From Norana najaformis (Eukaryota > Annelida > Clitellata > Crassiclitellata > Hormogastridae), in NCBI GenBank assembly GCA_964023275.1, contig OZ029922.1, positions 795,501 through 859,500 of the forward strand: a DNA stretch of 64,000 nucleotides, given 5' to 3'. The position numbers and the translations under genes are program-made. How positions within the stretch are numbered: the first letter of the stretch is position 1; the number at the start of each line of letters is the position of its first letter. Positions 2,409 to 47,607 of the stretch are shown one piece after another. The notes under the pieces are model-generated. The model did no database searches. It was not told the DNA's origin and was given only the letters and a program-made list of their open reading frames with translations.

Positions 2409-2854
2409 TATGTAAGTGAGCATTATAATATTTGCGGATGTCTTCATTCAAGGTCGTCTCTAAAGTGTTGTTCATCTAAAGCAACAAATCTAAACAGAGG
2501 CGAATTAATATGGTTTGCGAATGTGTTTCCTTTCCCGTTGATGCCTATTATCTCCCACTGAATCTGCATTTCCCAATATATTGCATTCCTGTCCAAAGGT
2601 CTTTCCCCTCGCTGGTTCAAACTATTTCCCACTGAAATTTCCCCATACATACAGCTACCCATTCTTGAGGCCACCTCCATTAAATATATATCTTCCCCAT
2701 ATATTTTCACTCTCACAAGTCAGCCTTTTAGCGCCATTGCATAAGTTGGTCTCCTTGAATCGGTTTTTATGTGGCGCTGAGATATTTTGGAGGTGTACAT
2801 TTACTTTTACATTTACATATCTTCCCCTGGTCCAGACCATCCCCCGAGCAGCAG
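2407..2854. other. No gene seen
   Basis: Unique-looking sequence between the CAG array and the second family D copy. Overlapping short ORFs on both strands show no family signature. Confidence 0.5.
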
Positions 2855-3525
2855 GGGCGACAAACTATTTTAAGTAGGCAGGTGCATAACACAGCTGGTT
2901 TAGCCGAACTGGCGCCGAAATCTGAAAGCAGGTGCGCAGTAGGATGGGCAGCAAATGATGACATTTCATGCATGAAAAACAGAGACATTGAGATAAATTT
3001 AGAAATAGGTCAAGAGGCGTATTCGCACCTGAATGCTTGCCACCTGCCTAATCCGCCCCAACACAGACAGACAGACAGATAAACACAGAGACAAACAGAT
3101 ACGCAGACATACAGAATTTAAAGGAGTGGTCAACACGTGTCTGGGATTCGTGTAACCAGCGCGCAATTCGATCTAACGGTCTCTTTCAAAACTCTGCTGC
3201 CACCTAGCGAATGCAGCTTACCAAAAACATGTGCTGCCACCTAGCGAATGCAATTGAATCTTTCAACCATGATTATTTAACACAGCGATCCAAAAGAATT
3301 ATTTTTCACTTTTACCATATTTTTAAAGATTTTCTTTATACTAAACACCATGTTTATTATTTAAAAATTGGTTGTAAAATTATTTATTGTAACTTTTGTA
3401 ATTATGAAAAGTAAAAAGTGAAAGATATGTAAATTCAATGTCAGATGCTCCACACCTCTATTTATAGTTCCAAGCGAATAACTCTGTCTCACGCAACACA
3501 TTTGTTAAACGCTGAGAAATTTCTC
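2855..3525 (+). mobile_element. Family D dispersed element, copy 2
   Basis: The best preserved copy. It begins GGGGCGACAAACTATTTTAA, carries GCGCCGAAATCTGAAA, the CAGACAGACAGACAG run, AAAGGAGTGGTCAACACGTG, then two tandem blocks of GCTGCCACCTAGCGAATGCA, an AT-rich stretch, and CACACCTCTATTTATAGTTC near the end. It aligns along its whole length with 716-1480. No ORF of interest. Confidence 0.8.
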
Positions 3526-3639
3526 AGACCTACATTACATTATAATCAATTTTATTACACTTATGGTCGACTTTGAGGTCCTTGGAAACGGCCATGGCAG
3601 CCACAAGATGTCGTTAAACTCTACTATTTCCTAGTTTTA

Positions 3640-4050
3640 TGAAATCTTATGCAAATTCAACAGTGAATGCGCCCATTCCTTATGCTTATGCGTAATTGTC
3701 TCGTTGGCTCTGCTCCATCATATCTTAGGGACTTCTGCATTTCGGTCTCCTTGGTTCCAGGCCGTAGCACTCTCCGGTCGGCCTCCATTGGACTTCTGAC
3801 TGTCCCTCGTATGCGCACTGCTACAGCGCAGTCTAGAAGCTTTGCCTATGTTGGACCCAATAGCTGGAATCGCCTTTCCCGAGAGCTCCGACTTGAATTC
3901 CTCCGTTTGTCCCTTCCGCAGTTTCGTAAGCGCCTGAAGTCTGTATTATTTGACAGTGGTCTCACTGGTTCGGGTCGGGAGCGCTTCTGATGACTCTATT
4001 CTTGAAGTGGCGCTTTATAAATGTCAGATTCAATTACAATTACAATTCCT
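3640..4050 (+). mobile_element. CR1-like LINE remnant, RT C-terminus and 3' tail
   Basis: An open frame at 3667-3990 encodes the C-terminal part of a non-LTR retrotransposon polymerase: ...RNCLVGSAPSYLRDF..., VPRMR.A.AQSRSFAYVGPNSWNRL, ending LKSVLF. It is the same family as the longer fragment at 45598-46472 (shared SRSFAYVGP, SAP.YL.DFC). After the stop comes GTGGCGCTTTATAAATGTCA then an AATTACAATTACAA tail, the typical 3' end of this family. It is truncated at its 5' end. Confidence 0.85.
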
Positions 4051-21964: not shown

Positions 21965-23065
21965 ATGACAGCAATAGCGTCAAATCACAAGGGTTGCGCC
22001 GTTGTTTATTGTAATGATACGTACTATAACGTGAAAGGAAAGAAGTTGAGCTCTTTCGGATTTCCGAAGGATCCACAGAGGTATTTTCATTCAAAGTGAC
22101 AGAATCAGTGATCGAATGGCTTCATTTTACTTGCCACTGAGCGATAGGCGATTAGCGCAGCTACCCTGACACGTGAATAATGCCCAACATCTCATCACTC
22201 TGTCAGATTGGTTTTGATAGGCATCATCTATTGTGTAATGGGGCCCAAATATGACGAATGCTGTTTTCTCAGAGTATGACATATCTCATTTCAAGTAACC
22301 TAACCAATCTAAGCTTTTTTACAAGGATAGGAAGCATAAGATTTTGTGTAGGCATTGGAATAGCAAACCAACTTCATGGAAGTTCCATCATCTCCTTTTC
22401 CTAATTTAGCCTAATCTTGTCCCAATTTTTTAAATCACCAGTTTCCCCATGGTCATTACACAGGGTCAGCTCAGCTTTAGTAGACACAGTATGATGCTTT
22501 TCCCACATTTCTGTAAAGAGTAAAGTGTTCTTAGTTTGATGAAGCTTCATATGCTGCCTTCTGGGAGCTATGACTGAAGACGACTGCAACTAGTGTATCA
22601 TGCCTTGAAAGTTTTTTGGCTAAATAATAAATTATTAAATGTTTGTATTAATTTCCAAAACTCAGCAGTGAATGTTGATTGTTTTCCAGATGCAAACAGT
22701 GGGTTGTCAACTGTCACACAGCAAACCTTGACAAAAAGACAACTGCTGAGCTGAATGCCAACTACATGGTCTGTGGTGAACACTTTGAAGATCGCATGTT
22801 TATGAACGTCACAACCAGGAACTCACTGATCCATACTGCTCTGCCAACAGTATTCAACTTCCCACCATTGTCAGCAGCAGCAGCTCCAAAAAGAAGGAAA
22901 CCATCAACAGAAAGACACCGCAGTTCAAAAAAGGTCAGAGCAAATGATGACAGCGCAGGAGCTGGTGATTCATTAATTCTTGGTTCGCCATCCATGATTG
23001 CACAAGTGCTATTTGATGCTATTTTTTACCTGTATGAGCCTTTCCATGTCATATATAAAGTGCTG
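21965..23065 (+). CDS. THAP domain protein, exons 1-2
   Basis: Exon 1 21965-22080 and exon 2 22690-23065 join in phase (CAGAG|GTATTT ... TTTTCCAG|A). The product starts MTAIASNHKGCAVVYCN and holds a full THAP zinc finger: C11 and C16, FGFPKD at 31-36, W43, C67-x2-H70 (CGEHF), then ALPTVFNFP in place of the AVPTIF box. THAP domains bind specific DNA in transcription factors and in P-element-type transposases. A basic stretch (PKRRKPSTERHRSSKK) follows and may be a nuclear localisation signal. Start: the ATG at 21965 is the first in frame. Exon 2 ends at CTG|GTAAGC, and the 121-bp satellite begins within about 10 bases of that donor. Probable further exons are at 31483-32082. Nothing here says whether it is a host gene or TE-derived. 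Confidence 0.8.
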
Positions 23066-23069
23066 GTAA

Positions 23070-25195
23070 GCTGATTGTCATTTTTGAGGCAATATGGCAT
23101 TTCTGAGGTACAGTGTAGCATTTTTGATGTGAAAGTCGGTGTATTTGAATTAAAATATGGTATTTTTGAGGCAATATGGCATTTCTGAGGTCAAGTGTAG
23201 CATTTTTGATGTGAAAGTCGGTGTATTTGAATTAAAATATGGTATTTTGAGGCTATATGGCATTTCTGAGGTACAGTGTAGCATTATTGATGTGAAAGTT
23301 GGTGTATTTGAATTAAAATGGGGTATTTTTGAGGCAATATGGCATTTCTGAGGTACAGTGTAGCATTATTGATGTGAAAGTTGGTGTATTTGAATTAAAA
23401 TGGGGTATTTTTGAGGCAATATGGCATTTCTGAGGTACAGTGCAGCATTATTGATGTGAAAGTTTGTGTATTTCAATTAAAATATGGTATTTTTGAGGCA
23501 ATATGGCATTTCTGAGGTAACAACGGGCATTTTTGATGTCAAATGTTTGGCTTTTGAATGAAAATATGACATTTTTGAGGCAAAACAACTTTTCTGAGGT
23601 AAATATGGCATTTTTGAGGAAATGTGGTATTTGAGGTAACAACGGGCATTTTTGATGTCAAATATGGTGCTTTTGAATGAAAATATGACATTTTTGAGGC
23701 AATATGACTTTTCTGAAGTAATTATGGCATTTATGAGGCAATGTGGCATTTCTGAGGTAACAATGGGTATTTCTGAAGTCAAATATGGGGTTTTAAATGA
23801 AAATATGGCATTTTTGAGGTAATTTGACTTTTCTAAGGTAAATGTGGCATTTCTGAGGTAAAAACGGGTATTTCTGAAGTCAAATATGGTGCTTTTGAAT
23901 GAAAAAATGGCATTTTTGAGGTAATATGACTTTTCTAAGGTAAATGTGGCATTTCTGAGGTAAAAACGGGTATTTCTGAAGTCAAATATGGCACTTTTGA
24001 ATGAAAATATGGCATTTTTGAGGTAATATGACTTTTCTAAGGTAAATATGGCATTTTTGAGGCAATGCGACATTTCTGAGGTAAAAACGGGTATTTCTGA
24101 AGTCAAATATGGCACTTTTGAATGAAAATATGGCATTTTTGAGGTAATATGACTTTTCTAAGGTAAATATGACTTTTTGAGGCAATGTGGCATTTCTGAG
24201 GTAAAAATGGGTATTTCTGAAGTCAAATATGGCACTTTTGAATGAAAATTTGGCATTTTTGAGGTAATATGACTTTTCTAAGGTAAATGTGGCATTTTTG
24301 AGGCAATGTGGCATTTCTGAGGTAAAAACGGGTATTTTTGAAGTCAAATATGGCACTTTTGAATGAAAATATGGCAATTTTGAGGCAATATGACTTTTCT
24401 AAGGTAAATGTGGCATTTTTGAGGCAGTGTGGCATTTCTGAGGTAAAAACGGGTATTTTTGAAGTCAAATATGGCACTTTTGAATGAAAATATGGGATTT
24501 TTGAGGTAATATGACTTTTCTAGAGGTAAATGTGGCATTTTTGAGGCAATGTGGCATTTCTGAGGTAAAAACGGGTATTTCTGAAGTCAAATATGGCACT
24601 TTTGAATGAAAATATGGCATTTTTGAGGTAATATGACTTTTCTAAGGTAAATGTGGCATTTTTGAGGCAATGTGGCATTTCTGAGGTAAAAACGGGTATT
24701 TCTGAAGTCAAATATGGCACTTTTGAATGAAAATATGGGATTTTTGAGGTAATATGACTTTTCTAAGGTAAATGTGGCATTTTTGAGGCAATGTGGCATT
24801 TCTGAGGTAAAAACGGGTATTTTTGAAGTCAAATATGGCACTTTTGAATGAAAATATGGGACTTTTGAGGCAATATGACTTTTCTAAGGTAAATGTGGCA
24901 TTTTTGAGGCAATGTGGCATTTCTGAGGTAAAAACGGGTATTTCTGAAGTCAAATATGGCACTTTTGAATGAAAATATGGGACTTTTGAGGCAATATGAC
25001 TTTTCTAAGGTAAATGTGGCATTTTTGAGGCAATGTGGCATTTCTGAGGTAAAAACGGGTATTTTTGAAGTCAAATATGGCACTTTTGAATGAAAATATG
25101 GGACTTTTGAGGCAATATGACTTTTCTAAGGTAAATGTGGCATTTTTGAGGCAATGTGGCATTTCTGAGGTAAAAACGGGTATTTCTGAAGTCAA
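23070..25195. repeat. 121-bp satellite, left block
   Basis: Tandem copies with a 121-bp period in 23.9-25.2 kb, each built of about six related ~20-bp subunits of the form GGCATTTTTGAGGCAATAT or GGCATTTCTGAGGTAAAAA. The part 23.07-23.9 kb is older and less regular, with ~100-bp and 20-bp periods. Minus-strand ORFs such as MPYLTSKIPVFTSEMPHCL recur every 121 bases but shift frame at each unit; they are repeat artefacts. The array fills the start of THAP intron 2. Confidence 0.95.
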
Positions 25196-25199
25196 ATAT

Positions 25200-25223
25200 G
25201 TGACCCGCCATGACAAAATGAGT
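25200..25223 (+). repeat. Left terminal inverted repeat
   Basis: GTGACCCGCC then ATGACAAAATGAGT. It matches the right repeat at 28166-28189 with a single C/A difference at position 6. Beyond base 24 the two ends diverge. Confidence 0.9.
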
Positions 25224-25825
25224 TGGAAGTCGCACAAAGCAGAACGCTGCAAATCGCTTGTAAAGGTGTTTTGCCTTCAAATTATTGATTTTGTGAATTT
25301 TACATTTTTGGAATCTACATTATACAATACATCAATAAAATATTAAATTGTAATTTATTCTGTTGTTTTTAATGTGTTATTGATGCAAAATGAATGACCT
25401 ATAAGATATAAAACCTCTCTACGAAATCGTTTTTGTACGATTTTCAAGCGCGTTGACTGTGTCCATCTGGCGAAAGATATCAAGGTTGTAATACATTGTT
25501 GGAAAGCTAAATCATAGCTCTATGGCATGAATAAATTATTTATTCGACCTGACCTTACTAATTAACCAATAAAATGCTTTCTTTATGAGCCTTAAACTGG
25601 ATCAGGGTAAACAAATTTAAATACCCAGGCTAGCAACCGTGATCACATGATTGAATTGCGCAAGGCTATTGGACAGTTTATAGGTCGCGCGTGCACACAT
25701 AGCCTAGGACGGACATTTTTGTTTTCAAGTACGACGAGGCGTGGTTTGTAAAAAATAATGTCAGCAGGAAAAAAAAGAAATCTGGAGGAAGAAAGAACAA
25801 CACGCAGAGTTTAAGTTTCGAGGAC

Positions 25826-27491
25826 ATGAAGGCTGTTGTGTCATTCGTAACACACTTCGCCGAACAGCATGCTCTTCTTTTACCGGGACGAGACCCGGGA
25901 TTTAAACGTAGCGACATTCGTCTGTTGCCATTCAGTGAAACTAAAGCCTCGATTTGGAGAAAATATGAGACTGCAATGGCAACTCTAGGTAAAGCATCAA
26001 ATTTAATGTAATGGGAACACCTTTCTATTACTATACACTAAAGAAAGTGTTTCTAAATTTCCTTCAGTTACATTTATTCTATCTGTAATTCTGTATTCCT
26101 TTAAAATGATTTTTTTAAATAGTACTGATTTTAAAGGTTACCATTAAAATAAAGATGCATTAATAAAAATAATAATTATTACTATAATTTTGAAGATTTA
26201 AAATCTTTATTAACTTGAGTATACTTGGTTTTTTACTTAAGCATAATTTTATTTAAGCAATTACACACTGCTGAAGCTACAATGAACTTTTTATAATTGC
26301 ATCATCAAGCCCAAAATATTTTGAGATTTCATTTTTTCCTTAGATCTACGAGCTGTCAAATTATCGACATTCAAAGAATTGTGGAACCAACTGGTGCCCT
26401 ACATTGTCCGGACTAAACCTATGACGGATCTGTGCTGGGAATGCCAGAGAAACAACTTCGCTCTCTACCGCACTGCCAACATGCCAGACAGCCTGAAGTC
26501 TGAGAAGGTTAAAAAACAGGAACAACATTTGTATATTGTACATCAAGAAAGGAGCTTGTACAACAACTTGGTCCATGAATCTAAGTTGGTTGCAGCTGCA
26601 AAAAACATTTCCACTCTCGGAAAGAATGGTGCTTGTGGAAATAACATTACAATGCATTACAGCTTTGACTTTGCACAAGAGGTGCATTATCCTAGTGACC
26701 CATTACAGCCTGGTCCAATGTATTTTTTGGTTTCGAGGAAATGTGGCATTTTTGGAGTTTGCTGTGAAGCTATACCACAGCAAATAAATTATTTGACTGA
26801 CGAGGGGATGTGTGAAAGTAAAGGTTCAAATTCTGTGATCAGTTATTTGCACCATTTACATTTCATGATTTCAGGACACACCAAGTTTTCTCCGGATTGG
26901 TGTTTTGGTTTGCTAAAACAAAGATTCCGACGAACACCAGTTTCGACTCTAGCTGACATAGAGGAAGTTGTTAACCTAAGCACTGTAAAGGGAGTCAACA
27001 AACCTCAGCTGATCGGCTCTGAAGATGGTACTGTGTTTGTACCGACATATGATTGGCAATCATTTCTAGAGCCATTCTTCAAGCTGCTCACTGGGATCAA
27101 AGGCCTCCATCATTTTCGGTTTTCACAGGTAACTCCTGGTATTATCCACTATCGAGTGACACCATCCTGTCAAGAGCAGTCAGTGCAACTTCTGAAAAGT
27201 TTAGACCAGTTACCGAGCGGTGATGGCCCTCTACCACTGAAACCAACTGGATTGCCGTTAGCTCGACAATGGTATCTGTACCAGAAGATTCGTCAGTTTG
27301 TTCGAGATGATCCTCAAGATGTGACCTGTCCAAAACCAATGACAGCTGCAGAAGATAAAGCTGCTGAAGACCAAGAAGAAATGGATGAACCTTATCCTTC
27401 ACAGAAACCAATTGGGCGCAAGAGAGCCAATCAGGAAACAAGAAAGCAAACCAAAACACCAACTCAGAGCAAACGAGGGCATAATAAATAG
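25826..27491 (+). pseudogene. DUF7869-like putative transposase, disabled
   Basis: Exon 1 (open from 25826 to 25988) and exon 2 (26344-27491) join in phase (CTAG|GTAAAG ... CCTTAG|AT). The product includes LLLPGRDPGFKRSDIRLLP, KPMTDLCWECQRNNFALY, HYSFDFAQEVHYPSDPLQPG, YFLVSRKCGIFGVCCEAIP, GHTKFSPDWCFGLLKQ and EDGTVFVPTYDW, a conserved order I associate with DUF7869 proteins, which usually run 600 or more residues; this copy encodes about 436. Two defects: (1) the better start, ATG 25758 (MSAGKK), is in another frame; one extra A in the A8 run at about 25768-25775 would make it continuous with KSGGRKNNTQSLSFEDMKAV. (2) Between SVISYLHHL and HFMISGHTKF (about 26850-26862) the segment that in relatives carries a HADNC.GQNKN motif is missing. 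The basic C-terminus (GRKRANQETRKQTK) is intact. It is likely a non-autonomous derivative. Confidence 0.8.
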
Positions 27492-28165
27492 AATTTTTTC
27501 TTATCAGCTTATGTGATTGATTGTTGTTCTTTAGAGAATTTAAGATTTAGGTTTGCATTTTGGTAGAAAAACTAGAAAATCATAATCTTCGGCAATTTCA
27601 TAATTTTTCTCAAGAACGCTTGTGATTTGCAACTTGAATAATTTTTTTATTTTGCAGCTTTTTTATCTTATATTTGACAGGAATACCTGCCTAGCTTACT
27701 AGTTTATGTATGCCAGGTTTAATTAAACTGTGAAGAATGTAACCAACAATTTGACATTAGAAACTGATGTACTAGGATTTAACCTGAGAAATAAAGAATA
27801 TTCACCGCTGTCACATTCTTCACAGGAAATGTGTTCTTTGTATCTCAAATAACTTTTTTATCTTTTAGAATTTTGTACTCCTGTTTGGCAGGTCTATTTG
27901 TCAATGTTAGTGGTCCATGTGGGCCAATTTTCATGTAATTTGGTTGACTCAAACCTATGGTTGCTAAGGCCAACCTGATATGCATCAGATAAATTTAGAA
28001 AATCTTGTTTTCCCGAAAATAAATATTGCACAGGATGAAAGTTTAGAAAATTAATAACTCCTCAAGCACTCAGTCGATTTCGATAAGTGATAGCTCATTT
28101 TAAAGGTAATTGAACATTGAATAATGTGGAATATATAACTCAAAATGTTCAAAAATAGCTTAGAG

Positions 28166-28189
28166 ACTCATTTTGTCATGGCTGGTCAC
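28166..28189 (-). repeat. Right terminal inverted repeat
   Basis: Plus-strand ACTCATTTTGTCATGG then CTGGTCAC, the reverse complement of the left repeat with one mismatch, followed by the ATAT target duplicate. Confidence 0.9.
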
Positions 28190-28193
28190 ATAT

Positions 28194-30930
28194 GGTGCTT
28201 TTGAATGAAAATATGGGATTTTTGAGGTAATATGACTTTTCTAAGGTAAATATGACGTTTTTTAGGCAATGTGGCATTTCTGAGGTAAAAACGGGTATTT
28301 CTGAAGTCAAATATGGCACTTTTGAATGAAAATATGGGATTTTTGAGGCAATATGACTTTTCTAAGGTAAATGTGGCATTTTTGAGGCAATGTGGCATTT
28401 CTGAGGTAAAAACGGGTATTTTTGAAGTCAAATATGGCACTTTTGAATGAAAATATGGGATTTTTGAGGTAATATGACTTTTCTAAGGTAAATGTGGCAT
28501 TTTTGAGGCAATGTGACATTTCTGAGGTAAAAACGGGTATTTCTGAAGTCAAATATGGCACTTTTGAATGAAAATATGACATTTTTGAGGTAATATGACT
28601 TTTCTATGGTAAATGTGGCATTTTTGAGGCAGTGTGACATTTCTGAGGTAAAAACGGGTATTTCTGAAGTCAAATATGGCACTTTTGAATGAAAATATGG
28701 GATTTTTGAGGTAATATGACTTTTCTAAGGTAAATGTGGCATTTTTGAGGCAATGTGGCATTTCTGAGGTAAAAACGGGTATTTTTGAAGTCAAATATGG
28801 TGCTTTTGAATGAAAATATGGCAATTTTGAGGCAATATGACTTTTCTAAGGTAAATGTGGCATTTTTGAGGCAGTGTGACATTTCTGAGGTAAAAACGGG
28901 TATTTCTGAAGTCAAATATGGTGCTTTTGAATGAAAATATGGGATTTTTGAGGCAATATGACTTTTCTAAGGTAAATGTGGCATTTTTGAGGCAATGTGG
29001 CATTTCTGAGGTAAAAACGGGTATTTTTGAAGTCAAATATGGCACTTTTGAATGAAAATATGGGATTTTTGAGGTAATATGACTTTTCTAAGGTAAATGT
29101 GGCATTTTTGAGGCAATGTGACATTTCTGAGGTAAAAACGGGTATTTCTGAAGTCAAATATGGCACTTTTGAATGAAAATATGGCATTTTTTGAGGTAAT
29201 ATGACTTTTCTAAGGTAAATGTGGCATTTTNNNNNNNNNNTATGGCATTTCTGAGGTAAAATATGGTATTTTGAGGAAATATGACGTTTCTGAGTTAACA
29301 ATAGGCAATTTTTATGTAAAATTTGGTTCTTTTGAATTAAAGTATGGCATTTTTGAGGAAATATGACATTTCTGAGGTAAAATATGGTATTTTGGAGGCC
29401 ATATGGCATTTCTAAATTAATAGTGGGCATTTATGATGTAAAATTTGAATCTTTTGAATTAAAGTGTGGCATTTTTGAGCAAATATGACATTTCTGAGGT
29501 ACAATATGGTATTTTGGAGGCCATATGGCATTTCTAAATTAATAGTGGGCATTTCTGATGTAAAATTTGAATCTTTTGAATTAAAATGTGGCATTTTTGA
29601 GGTATTATGACATTTCTGAGGTTAAATATGGTATTTTTGAGGCAATATGGCATTTCTGAGTTAACGATAGGCAATTAACTATGGGCATTATATATGTAAA
29701 AATTGGTTTTTGAATAAAAATGTGGAATTGTTGAGGCAATATGATATTTCTGAGGTAAAATGTGGTATTTTGAGTCAATTTGGCATTTCTGAGTTAACAG
29801 TGTGCAATTTTTGTATGTAAAATTTGGTTCTTTCAAATTAAAATGTGGAATTTTTGAGGCAGTATGACATTTGTGAGTTAATGATGGACTGTTTTAATGT
29901 AAAATTTGGTGTTTTTGAATTAAAATGTAGAATTTTTCGGGCAATAAGACATTTTTGAGGTGAAATTTGCTTTTTTGGAGCAATATGACATTTCTGAATT
30001 AACAATGGGCATTTTTTGTGTAAAATTTGGTGCTTTTGAATTAAAATATGGCATTTTTCAGGCAATATGGCATTTCTAAGGTAAAATTTGGCACTTTTGA
30101 AGTAGAGTGTGGTGGTTTCAAATTAAAATATGGTATTTTTGAGGCAATATGGCATTTCTGAGGTAAAATTTGGCATTCTTGAAGTAGAGTTTTGTTGTTT
30201 CAAATTAAAATGTGGCATTTCTGAGGTACAGTGTATCATTTTTGATGTGAAAGTTGGTGTATTTGAATTAAAATATGGTATTTTTGAGGCAATATGGCGT
30301 TTCTGAGTTAACAATGGGCAATTTTTATGTAAAGTATGGTTCTTTTGAATTAAAGTGTGGCATTTTTGAGGAAATATGACATTTCTGAGGTAAAATATGG
30401 TATTTTGAGGCAATATGGCGTTTCTGAATTAACAATGGGCAATTTTTATGTAAAATATCGTTTTTTTGAATTAAATTGTGGCATTTTTGAGGAAATATGA
30501 CATTTCTGAGGTAAGTTTTGGTATTTTGAGGCCATATGCATTTCTGAGTTAACATTGTGCATTTTTTATGTAAAGTTTGGTTTTTTTAAATTAAAATGTG
30601 GCATTTTTGAGGCAATATGACATTTCTGAGTTAACAATGGACTTTTTAAATGTAAAATTTTGTGTTTTTGAATTAAAATGTGGCGCTTTTCAGGCAATAT
30701 GTCATTTCTGAGGTAAAAATGTAGTGTTTTTGAGGCAATATGGCATTTGTGAGTTAACAATGGACATGTATTATGTAAAATGTGGTTCTTTTAAATTAAA
30801 ATGTGGCATTTTTGAGGCAATATGACATTTCTGAGGTAAAATATGGTATTTTTTGGGGCAATATGACTTTTTGAGGTCAAATATGGCATTTTGTAAATAA
30901 AATTTGGCGCTTTCGAATTTAAATTTAATT
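28194..30930. repeat. 121-bp satellite, right block
   Basis: The regular 121-bp array resumes in the same phase after the transposon and continues to about 29230. After an assembly gap it degrades into diverged ~20-bp and ~100-bp repeats (GGCATTTTTGAGGAAATATG, TTCTGAGTTAACAATGGGC) to about 30930. Confidence 0.95.
29231..29240. other. Assembly gap (10 N)
   Basis: Ten N bases inside the satellite, so the true array length is unknown. Confidence 1.
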
Positions 30931-39894: not shown

Positions 39895-40665
39895 AAGAAA
39901 AGGGCACTATACATGAGTTAAAAAATCAATTACAGTCATAAGATATCTTAAAAAGATATGTCTTGAGTCATGACTTGAATGTGTCCAGGAATGGGCATTC
40001 GTCACATAGTCAGGAAGACTGTTCCACGAATTGGGTCCAGCACACACAGTGAAAGAACGTTCGCCGAACTTCGTGGAAGACCGTGGGGCATGCAGTTGAT
40101 TCCTCGATGAGGACCGTAGCCGATGTATGTTCTGGTTATCGGCTGTTCGAATACAGAGGTCGGATATGTAGTCTGGTACAAGACCACTAAGAGCCTTGTA
40201 TGTGATTAGTTTGTAGGTGATCCGCTGAGGAATGCGCAACCAGTGCAGGTTGTCGTGCAGCAGATTGGTGACTTGATTGAATGGTGTTCGACAATAGATG
40301 AGGCGGGCAGCAGAGTTTAGCACTGACTGTATCCGCTCTATCTGACAAGTCGGCAGACCTTTCAGCAGGCTATTGCAGTAGTCAACTCAGGAGACTAGGA
40401 AGCTGTTGACCAAAGTGACAGCGGTTGAGGTGGGAATGAATCTGCGGATCGATTAATGCGATGCAGTTGGTAGAAGCAACCTCGTACAAGTTGATTCACA
40501 TGGGCCGACATGGTCATGCAGCTGTCAAAGTGGACCCCAATGTTGCGAATGGTGTCAGCTGGTTGAACTTGGGCATTGTTGAGGGCAAAGGTCGAGTAGA
40601 TGGCGATGTCGGAGAATGGTGCACCATAGGAAAAATCCCAAGGGTTAGGGTCCATCTGTGACCTT
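39895..40665 (-). mobile_element. CR1-like LINE remnant, RT C-terminal region
   Basis: Minus-strand frames at 40395-40655 (TIRNIGVHFDSCMTMSAHVN, GCFYQLHRI) and 39907-40323 (VLNSAARLIYCRTPF, LHWLRIPQRITYKL, KALSGLVPDYISDL, GPNSWNSLPD) are consecutive parts of a CR1/L2-type polymerase: the SAHVN block, the LNSAARLI block and the GP.SWNSLP C-terminus. They are separated by a frame change and stops. On the minus strand the element is preceded by no intact 5' part. Confidence 0.85.
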
Positions 40666-44949: not shown

Positions 44950-47607
44950 ATGCCATGTCAACAGAAGGTAGTCTCCACGTAAACGATGAGAGAGCCAAGG
45001 TCAAGGAGAAACACGAAGAAGAGTGAGTGATATTGATTTTCTCTGACCTATCAGAATTTGATCCGGCTTCTCCAACGGATTAGAATTTTGGATTGTGATT
45101 TTGGCTTGAAGTGAGCATCAACTAATGCCTTTGGCAGTGTGATAATGGTGCTATATAAGTCATTGGATTAGTTTCGATTTAGCTATATCACTTGTTGAAC
45201 ATTTTTGTTTCGAAAGTAGCGCTGTTGGTTTTGACTGCTTGAACTTGTTATATGATAGCTTTGCGATGTTCGTGTTAAGCTTGATTGTGGTGGTTCAGAT
45301 AAACATAGCAGTAGTGATGGTCATGATGATGACAAAGTTGGTGGTGGTGGTGGTGGGCATGTAGGTGATGGTGTTTGCTCTTTTGTCGATGTGCATTGAC
45401 TACTGCTGTTTGATTGGTGCAGATGCAGGAAATCCTCAACTGGCCAAGTAGTGGCAGCTGTTCACCCAGGTCATGATGACGATGATGTAATATTGTGAAT
45501 TTTAAAGACCAGATAATGTTGATGACACGAGAATGCATTGAATGCATTGAACTTGATTGATTGACTCTTTTATTGATCCGAAATTCAACATATCAGGATT
45601 CTCGATGCCACATCTGTTCTTGACCTATGGATGTCCTCCAATCGCCTCTGCTTGAACTGTAATAAGACCCAGTTCATCTGGCTTGGTGGCCGCTTACAGG
45701 TCGCCAAGATCGATGTCTCCTCCTTACGCCAAAGATTTCCAGATATCTCCTTCTCTACTACGGTCCGGGATCTCGGGGTTGTACTGGATCAGGAGCTTTC
45801 CCTGTCTGCTCATGTTAACAGCGTCTCTCGCTCTTGTTTTTACCATCTTCGTCAGCTCCATACCATTCGCCGTACTCTTTCCTTTCACGCTATCTCCACG
45901 CTGGTCCATGCCCTCATTTGCACCAGGGTTGACTTTGGGGACGCCATCTTTACCGGGCTATCGCTTGCCAACACTGCTAAGCTACAATCTGTGCTCAACT
46001 CTGCTGCTCGTCTCATAGGGGGCATTCCAAAGTATGGCCACATCTCGTCTTATATTCGTGACACTCTTCACCGGCTCCCCGTCCAGCAGCGTGTCCACTT
46101 TAAGATCCTCTCCCTCATGCGCAATTGTGTTCTTGGCTCTGCTCCCCTTTACCTCATGGACTTCTGCACTTTGGTCTCCTCATTGCCGGGCTGTAGCAAC
46201 CTTCGCTCGGCCACTCAAGATCTCCTGTTTGTCCCTCGCATGCATACCGCTGCAGCCCAGTCGAGAAGCTTTGCCTACGTTGGTCCCACTTGCTGGAATC
46301 GTCTCCCTCGAGAATTGCAACTTGAGCTCCTTTCTCTCCCCCTCTCAGTATTCTGCAGGAGCCTGAAGACTGTACTATTCAACAGTGATTTTACCTTTTC
46401 GGGTCAGAAGCACCTCTGTTGAGTTTATCCTCTAAGAGGCGCTTTATAAATCTCAAATTACAATTACAAAACAGTTTGCCAGGATACAAAAGGTGAACCC
46501 ACAAGGGACCAGGGTCCCGCTTAAATAGGGTTGCTTATTAACATTGATAATGAACAAGTAAATAGAATGCACATTATTCATTCGCACTCATCACTGCAAG
46601 GTGCTTCAACAGGTGGAGGAGAAAAGATCTCTGATGGCTACAGTAAGAACGAGACAGGGGAAATGGATTGGACGTGCACAGAGAGGTGATTCCCTCCCGA
46701 GAATAGAGGGAAGAATGGAAGGAAGGAAAGAAGAGGAAGACCTGGACAAATGCTACTGGACTGGATGATGGTGGACATATATGGTAAATGGAAGGAGGAG
46801 GCACCAGGAATGGCACATTGGACTTTAACCTGCCTGGGGCAGTGAACTTGAAGAAGACTCATCGTTGCCAAAGACCGGCATCAAGAACTGATGATGATGA
46901 TGGTGATGGTGATCGTGATGGTTGTGGTGGTTGTAATGATTGTAGTGATAGCGATGACTACGGCAGTGCCAATGTTAGTGACTGTGATCATGAAATTTCT
47001 GTTTTAGAATGTTTCTTTTTATAATGTTTTATAAGATGATCTGTTATCTTTGTAAGCAGCAGTTGAGTCTGCCGCCATGAACTCCTCCTCTGCTTCTGCA
47101 TCCCTTTACCAGCTCCAGTCAGTCAGTCAGTGAGCATCTTGTTGCACCTGCCACCATTAAGCAGACCGAACATGGTGTGTCTGCTCATCGATGCGTCCTT
47201 CCTTCAGACAGCAGTGGTAAATGAAGCAATTTACTTCCTGAAAATGGTGGAAATTTATTGTCTTTGTGATAGAAAAACCCTTATTTTTCAAAATAAAAAA
47301 GGACAAAAGGAAAGTGTCAACTTATGTATATGCATGAATTTGTTGACTGCAACTTTATCTGTGTGATTTGGTTGTTTCAGAGGACGATGAAAGTGTTGCG
47401 CCAATGGGTCAGGCTTGCCTTGTGATGATGCAGACCTTCATGCCTCAGCTGAAAAAGTCAACTCATAGAATCTGGCTTCATTTTGTTGATCCAAAAAGAC
47501 ACAGACATCAAAGACCATTGCCAGTAGACCTTGACCGAAACGATGACCTACTTCAGTCATCGGTTAGGTTAAAACAAGTCAAGGGAAAAGTGGTGCAGAG
47601 AGAATGA
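44950..47607 (+). CDS. Small three-exon gene, unknown function
   Basis: Three exons keep phase: 44950-45022 (after a long polypyrimidine tract and TTCACAG; ends GAAGA|GTGAGT), 47113-47216 (after CTGCATCCCTTTACCAG; ends AGTG|GTAAAT) and 47381-47607 (after GTTGTTTCAG; stop 47605-47607). From ATG 44955 the product is 132 residues: MSTEGSLHVNDERAKVKEKH, an acidic/serine middle (HRCVLPSDSSEDDESVAPMG), then QACLVMMQTFMPQLKKSTHR and a basic end with KRHRHQRPLPVDLDRNDD. The leading acceptor suggests coding sequence may continue upstream. No domain is recognised. The first intron contains a CR1-like LINE and an RTE-like remnant. Evidence is splice-site quality and phase only. Confidence 0.45.
45598..46472 (+). 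mobile_element. CR1-like LINE, 5'-truncated, open RT C-terminus
   Basis: A 263-codon open frame (45631-46422; sequence homology begins near 45598) encodes the RT C-terminal third: CNKTQFIWLGG, FSTTVRDLGVVLDQELSLSA, HVNSVSRSCFYHLRQL, LQSVLNSAARLIGG, HRLPVQQRVHFKILSLM, SRSFAYVGPTCWNRLPREL, LKTVLF. No palm motif (F.DD) is present, so the copy is 5'-truncated. The 3' end GAGGCGCTTTATAAATCTCA plus AATTACAATTACAA is the family tail. Its undamaged frame suggests recent insertion. It lies in intron 1 of the small gene at 44950-47607. Confidence 0.9.
46600..46890 (+). mobile_element. RTE-like LINE C-terminal remnant
   Basis: Frames read VRTRQGKWIGRAQRGDSL, GRPGQMLLDWMM and WKEEAPGMAHWTLTCLGQ-like pieces, typical of the last ~80 residues of RTE-type polymerases, followed by ATCAAGAACTGATGATGATG, a simple-repeat tail. 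Frame shifts are present. Confidence 0.6.

Follow-up and report, generated by a model that had tools for sequence, protein, structure and literature searches.

A deleted, non-autonomous DUF7869 DNA transposon with AWWT target duplications in satellite DNA of Norana najaformis, probably of the Sola2 group

We analyzed a stretch of 64,000 nucleotides (hereafter the window) of the annelid Norana najaformis, in which a 121-bp satellite is interrupted by a transposable element containing the remnant of a gene for a protein with the Pfam domain DUF7869. The element is bounded by terminal inverted repeats (TIRs) and target-site duplications (TSDs). Its features are as follows, with L numbers denoting other places in the genome:

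23943–25199, no strand: 121-bp satellite left of the insertion (repeat analysis)
25196–25199, no strand: left TSD, ATAT (sequence; with one ATAT removed the satellite monomer results)
25200–28189, + strand: DUF7869 DNA transposon copy, non-autonomous, 2,990 bp (TIR pair, TSD, matches at 21 other genomic places, 20 of them read)
25200–25223, + strand: left TIR, 24 nt (inverted-arm and terminal-pattern searches; genome-wide termini)
25758–25988, + strand: fused remnant of 5' exons (L010 alignment, reading-frame check; L013 has this junction too)
25989–26343, + strand: GT-AG intron, third of the long gene (precisely absent from L010 and L011)
26344–27491, + strand: final exon with the DUF7869 coding sequence, 3' portion of the putative transposase (open frame 26325–27491; Pfam PF25273, E 7.6e-07)
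26852–26858, + strand: breakpoint of the in-frame 135-bp loss, 5 nt of microhomology (L010 alignment, reading-frame check)
28166–28189, − strand: right TIR, 24 nt, one mismatch to the left TIR (inverted-arm and terminal-pattern searches)
28190–28193, no strand: right TSD, ATAT (sequence; with one ATAT removed the satellite monomer results)
28190–30100, no strand: 121-bp satellite right of the insertion (repeat analysis)

The first-pass annotation of this DNA had described a 2,990-bp unit splitting the satellite, with 24-bp inverted ends that differ at one position and ATAT on both sides, and all of this was borne out to the base. With ATAT included, the inverted arms (25196–25223 and 28166–28193) measure 28 nt and are 96% complementary. 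At up to 3 mismatches the terminal pattern occurs at only two places in the window, which are the two ends of the element, and none of 100 shuffled controls reached two matches. Both edges adjoin the 121-bp satellite directly. Removal of the unit with one ATAT had been claimed to rebuild a monomer exactly, and the joint of the flanks is indeed identical to one other satellite monomer at 60 of 60 nt. Among the matches listed, the flanks joined over one ATAT aligned without gaps over 242 bp to nearby monomers, with identities of up to 96.3%, and of 74–88% for more diverged monomers. The description as a TIR- and TSD-bounded DNA transposon that contains a remnant of a DUF7869 gene and whose empty site is known is supported. 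The insertion is "dated" only in a relative sense, the window copy lying 1.6% from the majority of its family over 1,189 sites.

The two-exon gene that had been proposed inside the element is not intact; the DUF7869 domain was confirmed, but it belongs to a doubly deleted remnant with an early stop. The 3,881-bp copy L010 served as the reference for the deletion map of the family. Relative to it, a stretch of 1,087 bp in the 5' part of the gene is missing from the window copy (L010 about 596–601 to 1683–1688; junction near 25775–25785), which leaves the ATG at 25758, common to the window copy and longer copies, out of frame and followed by a stop after 18 codons. L013, on contig C16, has this junction too, so the deletion predates the insertion in the window. 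The other deletion, of 135 bp, removes 45 residues including HCDNCSGQNKN, a central acidic motif present in L010, L011, and L012. The last exon of the window copy matched PF25273 at 29.3 bits over profile positions 94–179 of 192 only, and both this score and that of L011 (69.7 bits) exceeded the gathering cut-off of 26 bits. The locus itself consequently gives the ends and the target length, as had been stated, but not the genetic unit, which the longer copies supply.

The first-pass annotation had suggested a genome search for further copies sharing these ends and duplications, and such copies were found. We searched the genome (608 Mb, 17 contigs) with the element, and at least 50 matching pieces were assigned to the window and at least 21 other places. 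The copies read comprised the window and 20 of these 21 places, all but one short piece on contig C5, and they constitute family 1, the family of the window element. With a complete end defined as a TIR at no more than 2 mismatches, 13 of the 21 copies had both TIRs (the window included), seven had one, and one (L028) had none; outside the window, both ends and a duplication were present in 12 of 20. All 13 two-ended copies showed a perfect 4-bp TSD, every one of the form AWWT (ATAT 8, AAAT 2, ATTT 2, AATT 1). When left and right flanks were paired at random, the mean was 5.59 TSD matches and 13 was reached in 1 of 20,000 shuffles. Flank matches at lengths 3, 5, 6, and 8 were seen in none of the 13 copies, and those at length 2 in eight, near the shuffled mean of 7.69. 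The seven one-ended copies all adjoin AWWT as well (ATAT four; AATT, AAAT, and ATTT one each). In one of them, L019, the second end was recognisable only at 6 mismatches; its initial ∼10 bases have been replaced, and the flanks show no duplication.

When up to 2 mismatches were allowed, the family-1 terminus occurred 46 times genome-wide, and 33 of these termini belong to family-1 copies; the reversed-pattern control gave 0. In two copies (L009 near 1081, L019 near 3295) one TIR lacks its first ∼10 bases and keeps the inner ATGACAAAATGAGT part; these truncated ends possibly reflect use of the inner TGAC, or chance. A sister terminus, GTGACC(A/C)GCTCTGACAAAATGAGT with CTCTGAC, marks a large set of elements (e.g., L060–L066), some of which apparently lie inside another repeat. 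With up to 3 mismatches allowed it was counted 245 times, a total that also covers the family-1 ends, against 0 for the reversed control.

The protein encoded by the longer family-1 copies contains DUF7869 and three conserved Asp residues. The long gene consists of a 5' exon (MSAGKEKE...), a 5' intron, and up to two more introns further on; in L010 the 5' intron is predicted from frames and GT-AG ends, and downstream of the first intron L011 has an uninterrupted frame of 583 aa. In each of the six longest copies examined (window, L009, L010, L011, L012, and L013) the gene is disrupted by a stop, a break in the frame or a deletion. Several deletion types recur, including 896/2232 at three places (L014–L016), 1097/1259 together with 1463/2875 at four (L017–L020), 996/3200 at three (L023–L025), and 1530/2944 at two (L021, L022), and some pairs of copies are only 0.1% apart in tree distance. 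Recurrent deletion types and close pairs are typical of non-autonomous copies mobilised in trans.

The copies also differ in their introns. Two introns of L009 (about 2681–3102 and 3380–3733) are missing to the base in L010 and L011, both of which retain the predicted 5' intron; the second of the two is also found in the window copy, L012, and L013. The sister position of L010 and L011 (tree support 0.91) suggests intron loss, perhaps through spliced RNA, but in the relatives L047, L035, and L049 an open frame continues across both intron positions, which suggests gain in the other copies. We also considered the intron of the window as a repeated, self-spreading intron, and this was unsupported: positions 25990–26341 were found only in four copies of the element.

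Searching the source genome with PF25273 returned 24 matches, and 0 of 14 control genomes matched. Ten of the 24 make up a second family, with 33% protein identity to family 1 over 525 aligned positions, and at six of these ten places an uninterrupted frame of 686–687 aa lies between stops. The element at L035 measures 3,628 bp and has perfect TIRs of 32 nt (GTGACGCCGGCC...); after the 686-aa frame its next longest frame is 97 aa. At the seven of ten places where the ends were examined, five copies had ATAT on both sides and two had no matching duplication, a result no better than shuffled pairing (5,750 of 20,000) because nearly all sites are ATAT. The two unmatched copies, L039 and L045, have 4-bp flanks of TTTA/AATT and CTAT/ATAT, which would be accounted for by mutation or by recombination between copies. 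Over seven copies the second-family frame had a pN/pS of 0.49, with replacement changes at 28 variable codons and silent changes at 16, and pN exceeded pS in some pairs; selection on the frame is weakly suggested.

A third family shares 53% protein identity with family 1 (161 aligned positions) and is represented by one 3,936-bp copy, which is flanked by AATT left and right and whose TIRs agree at 25 of 32 positions. None of 500 shuffles was as good as this candidate in a search that required GTGAC ends and AWWT flanks. All three DUF7869 families begin with GTGAC. Other relatives of the domain were observed in the genome as well. At L049:367–2421 (contig C7, about 2.392 Mb) there is an uninterrupted frame of 685 aa in which the second acidic motif has changed to HAGDCGGKSKS; one left-like end at 5 mismatches had no AWWT flank, and the best right end, at 9 mismatches, was no better than shuffles. 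The locus may be a decayed copy or a candidate host gene. A search for ends at L050 found none. The DUF7869 fragment at L048:1615–2262, in which the motifs read DACWSQNKN and PPDRVFG, has diverged very far and forms a second branch of the domain within the genome.

In the protein, three Asp residues align across L011, L035, and the very divergent L048. The motifs in these three are, in that order, SFDFAQ, GFDYAQ, and SFDMQQ around the first Asp, DNCSGQNKN, DNCIGQNKN, and DACWSQNKN around the second, and SPDWCFG, SPDWAFG, and PPDRVFG around the third. The third family has all three as well, and Glu replaces the first Asp in one of nine second-family copies examined (L040). From the alignment we infer that the Asp residues of SFDFAQ, HCDNCSGQNKN, and GHTKFSPDWCFG are a putative DDD catalytic triad on an RNase H-like fold. 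Upstream of these motifs there is a Cys-rich stretch and a CxxC. The L011 protein covers positions 28–179 of 192 of PF25273 (E 3.1e-19), DUF7869 is the only Pfam domain above cut-offs, and in Pfam, NCBIfam, and PHROGs no other profile matched at a curated cut-off or with a convincing E-value. The N-terminus of L035 resembles the ISNCY transposase model NF033594 weakly (E 0.0057; 15.9 bits against a cut-off of 250), a match that we read as a helix-turn-helix; L011 has no such match, and the likeness to bacterial transposases of the ISNCY type is taken as a lead only.

Searches for relatives outside the genome were negative within the collections covered. In IMG/VR, neither a single-protein nor an alignment query gave a confirmed relative (67 pattern matches with the alignment), and a DNA pattern of HxDNCxGQNKN had 0 matches there. 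GTDB genomes yielded 25 pattern matches and no confirmed relative, and no relative was found among phages queried with the window exon or plasmids queried with L011. With no confirmed relatives in these collections, a deep alignment for the fold could not be built. AlphaFold on the window exon alone returned a pLDDT of 33.9, which is unusable, and searches of solved structures gave no convincing match, one of them with two chance-level hits (E 0.61 and 0.92).

Two further families carry the domain between GTGAC ends with AWWT flanks, apart from the exceptions noted above, which makes DUF7869 very probably the transposase, a putative role that draws on the three families. As a whole, we hold it to be highly likely that the window element is an internally deleted, non-autonomous copy of a cut-and-paste transposon that duplicates AWWT, with DUF7869 as its putative transposase. 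The DUF7869 protein would bind the GTGAC... ends, excise the element, cut AWWT sites with a 4-bp stagger and join the element ends to them, and repair of the stagger would produce the target duplication. The window copy, part of its gene already missing, would have been moved in trans by a complete relative.

Another explanation is that the DUF7869 protein is a passenger and that a transposase encoded elsewhere moves the elements. The clean ends of an element with a broken gene fit such an arrangement, as does the spread of deletion derivatives without a whole gene over the genome; yet all three families, diverged as their proteins are, retain a DUF7869 gene flanked by GTGAC ends, the L035 element has no other long frame, and six of ten second-family places have kept an uninterrupted frame, which renders a passenger role highly improbable. 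It is almost inconceivable that the unit is a chance inverted repeat, an assembly artefact or a segmental duplication in the satellite. Satellites are prone to misassembly and the window contains 10 N, some of them in the right array, but pieces of the element lie at 21 other places, with both ends and the duplication in 12 of the 20 read, and the reversed control was empty. A non-transposon reading is refuted by these copies, their TSDs, and that control.

We turn now from the transposase itself to the superfamily in which the DUF7869 elements should be placed. piggyBac and Sola3 target TTAA; they also duplicate 4 bp, but TTAA was found in 0 of the 13 family-1 TSDs. The Sola superfamily and its Sola2 group were reportedly introduced by Bao et al. 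in 2009. According to one paper, Sola2 elements have 4-bp AT-rich AWWT TSDs, e.g., ATAT, AAAT, and ATTT (PMC3627910), and another gives Sola a DDD transposase, a 4-bp TSD, and sizes of mostly 2–9 kb (PMC10741241). Since the AWWT 4-bp TSDs and the Asp pattern fit these published features, the family probably belongs to the Sola2 group of the Sola superfamily, with Sola2 compared by published description only. The likeness to Sola2 comprises the 4-bp TSD of all two-ended family-1 copies, the AWWT sites that include the three printed examples, and the presence of TIRs (24 nt in family 1, 32 nt in the second, 25/32 nt in the third). The sizes of 3,628, 3,880, 3,881, and 3,936 bp, and of about 4.64 kb for the longest copy L009, lie within the range given for most Sola elements, and the three conserved Asp residues, by sequence alignment, would be consistent with a DDD transposase. 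In contrast, the amoebozoan Sola2 elements of PMC3627910 have TIRs of 12–21 nt against 24–32 nt here and carry Fanzor genes, for which the present elements were checked by Pfam scans only.

Alternatively, the DUF7869 transposons might form a separate, unnamed DDD superfamily that resembles Sola2 only in target length and A/T preference. Pfam labels the domain as unknown and gives it no function, the literature search (subscription journals, Repbase, and Dfam lying outside its scope) found no paper using the name DUF7869, and the lack of another profile match in Pfam, NCBIfam, and PHROGs points weakly the same way. Against this, the ATAT, AAAT, and ATTT duplications are those printed for Sola2 in PMC3627910, and the Asp pattern fits Sola as outlined in PMC10741241; we therefore think a separate superfamily rather unlikely, and the earlier statement that DUF7869 stands outside any named superfamily is probably wrong. 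A more elaborate version, decidedly unlikely in our view, would combine a DDD superfamily of its own (GTGAC ends, AWWT targets, not Sola2) with conversion of copies through spliced RNA, in keeping with two 3'-side introns that are precisely present or absent and a 5' intron that is kept.

Under the preferred Sola2 reading, these elements are probably a new transposon family of a known kind that links a domain of unknown function, found here in TIR- and TSD-bounded elements, to a transposase. A Pfam domain of unknown function thereby gains a testable transposase assignment, and three families in one genome supply the ends, the target rule, the gene, and the deletion derivatives. Should DUF7869 prove to be the transposase of Sola2, proteins annotated as uncharacterised become recognisable as transposon proteins; if it is not, there is one superfamily without a name. 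In either case, the long uninterrupted frame at 6 of 10 second-family places means that the assignment can be tested.

Elsewhere in the window, a frame with a THAP domain (22679–23074; Pfam E 2.5e-08) lies just upstream of the satellite, and two frames, 39907–40386 on the − strand and 45577–46422 on the + strand, resemble what we take to be the C-terminal part of LINE reverse transcriptases.
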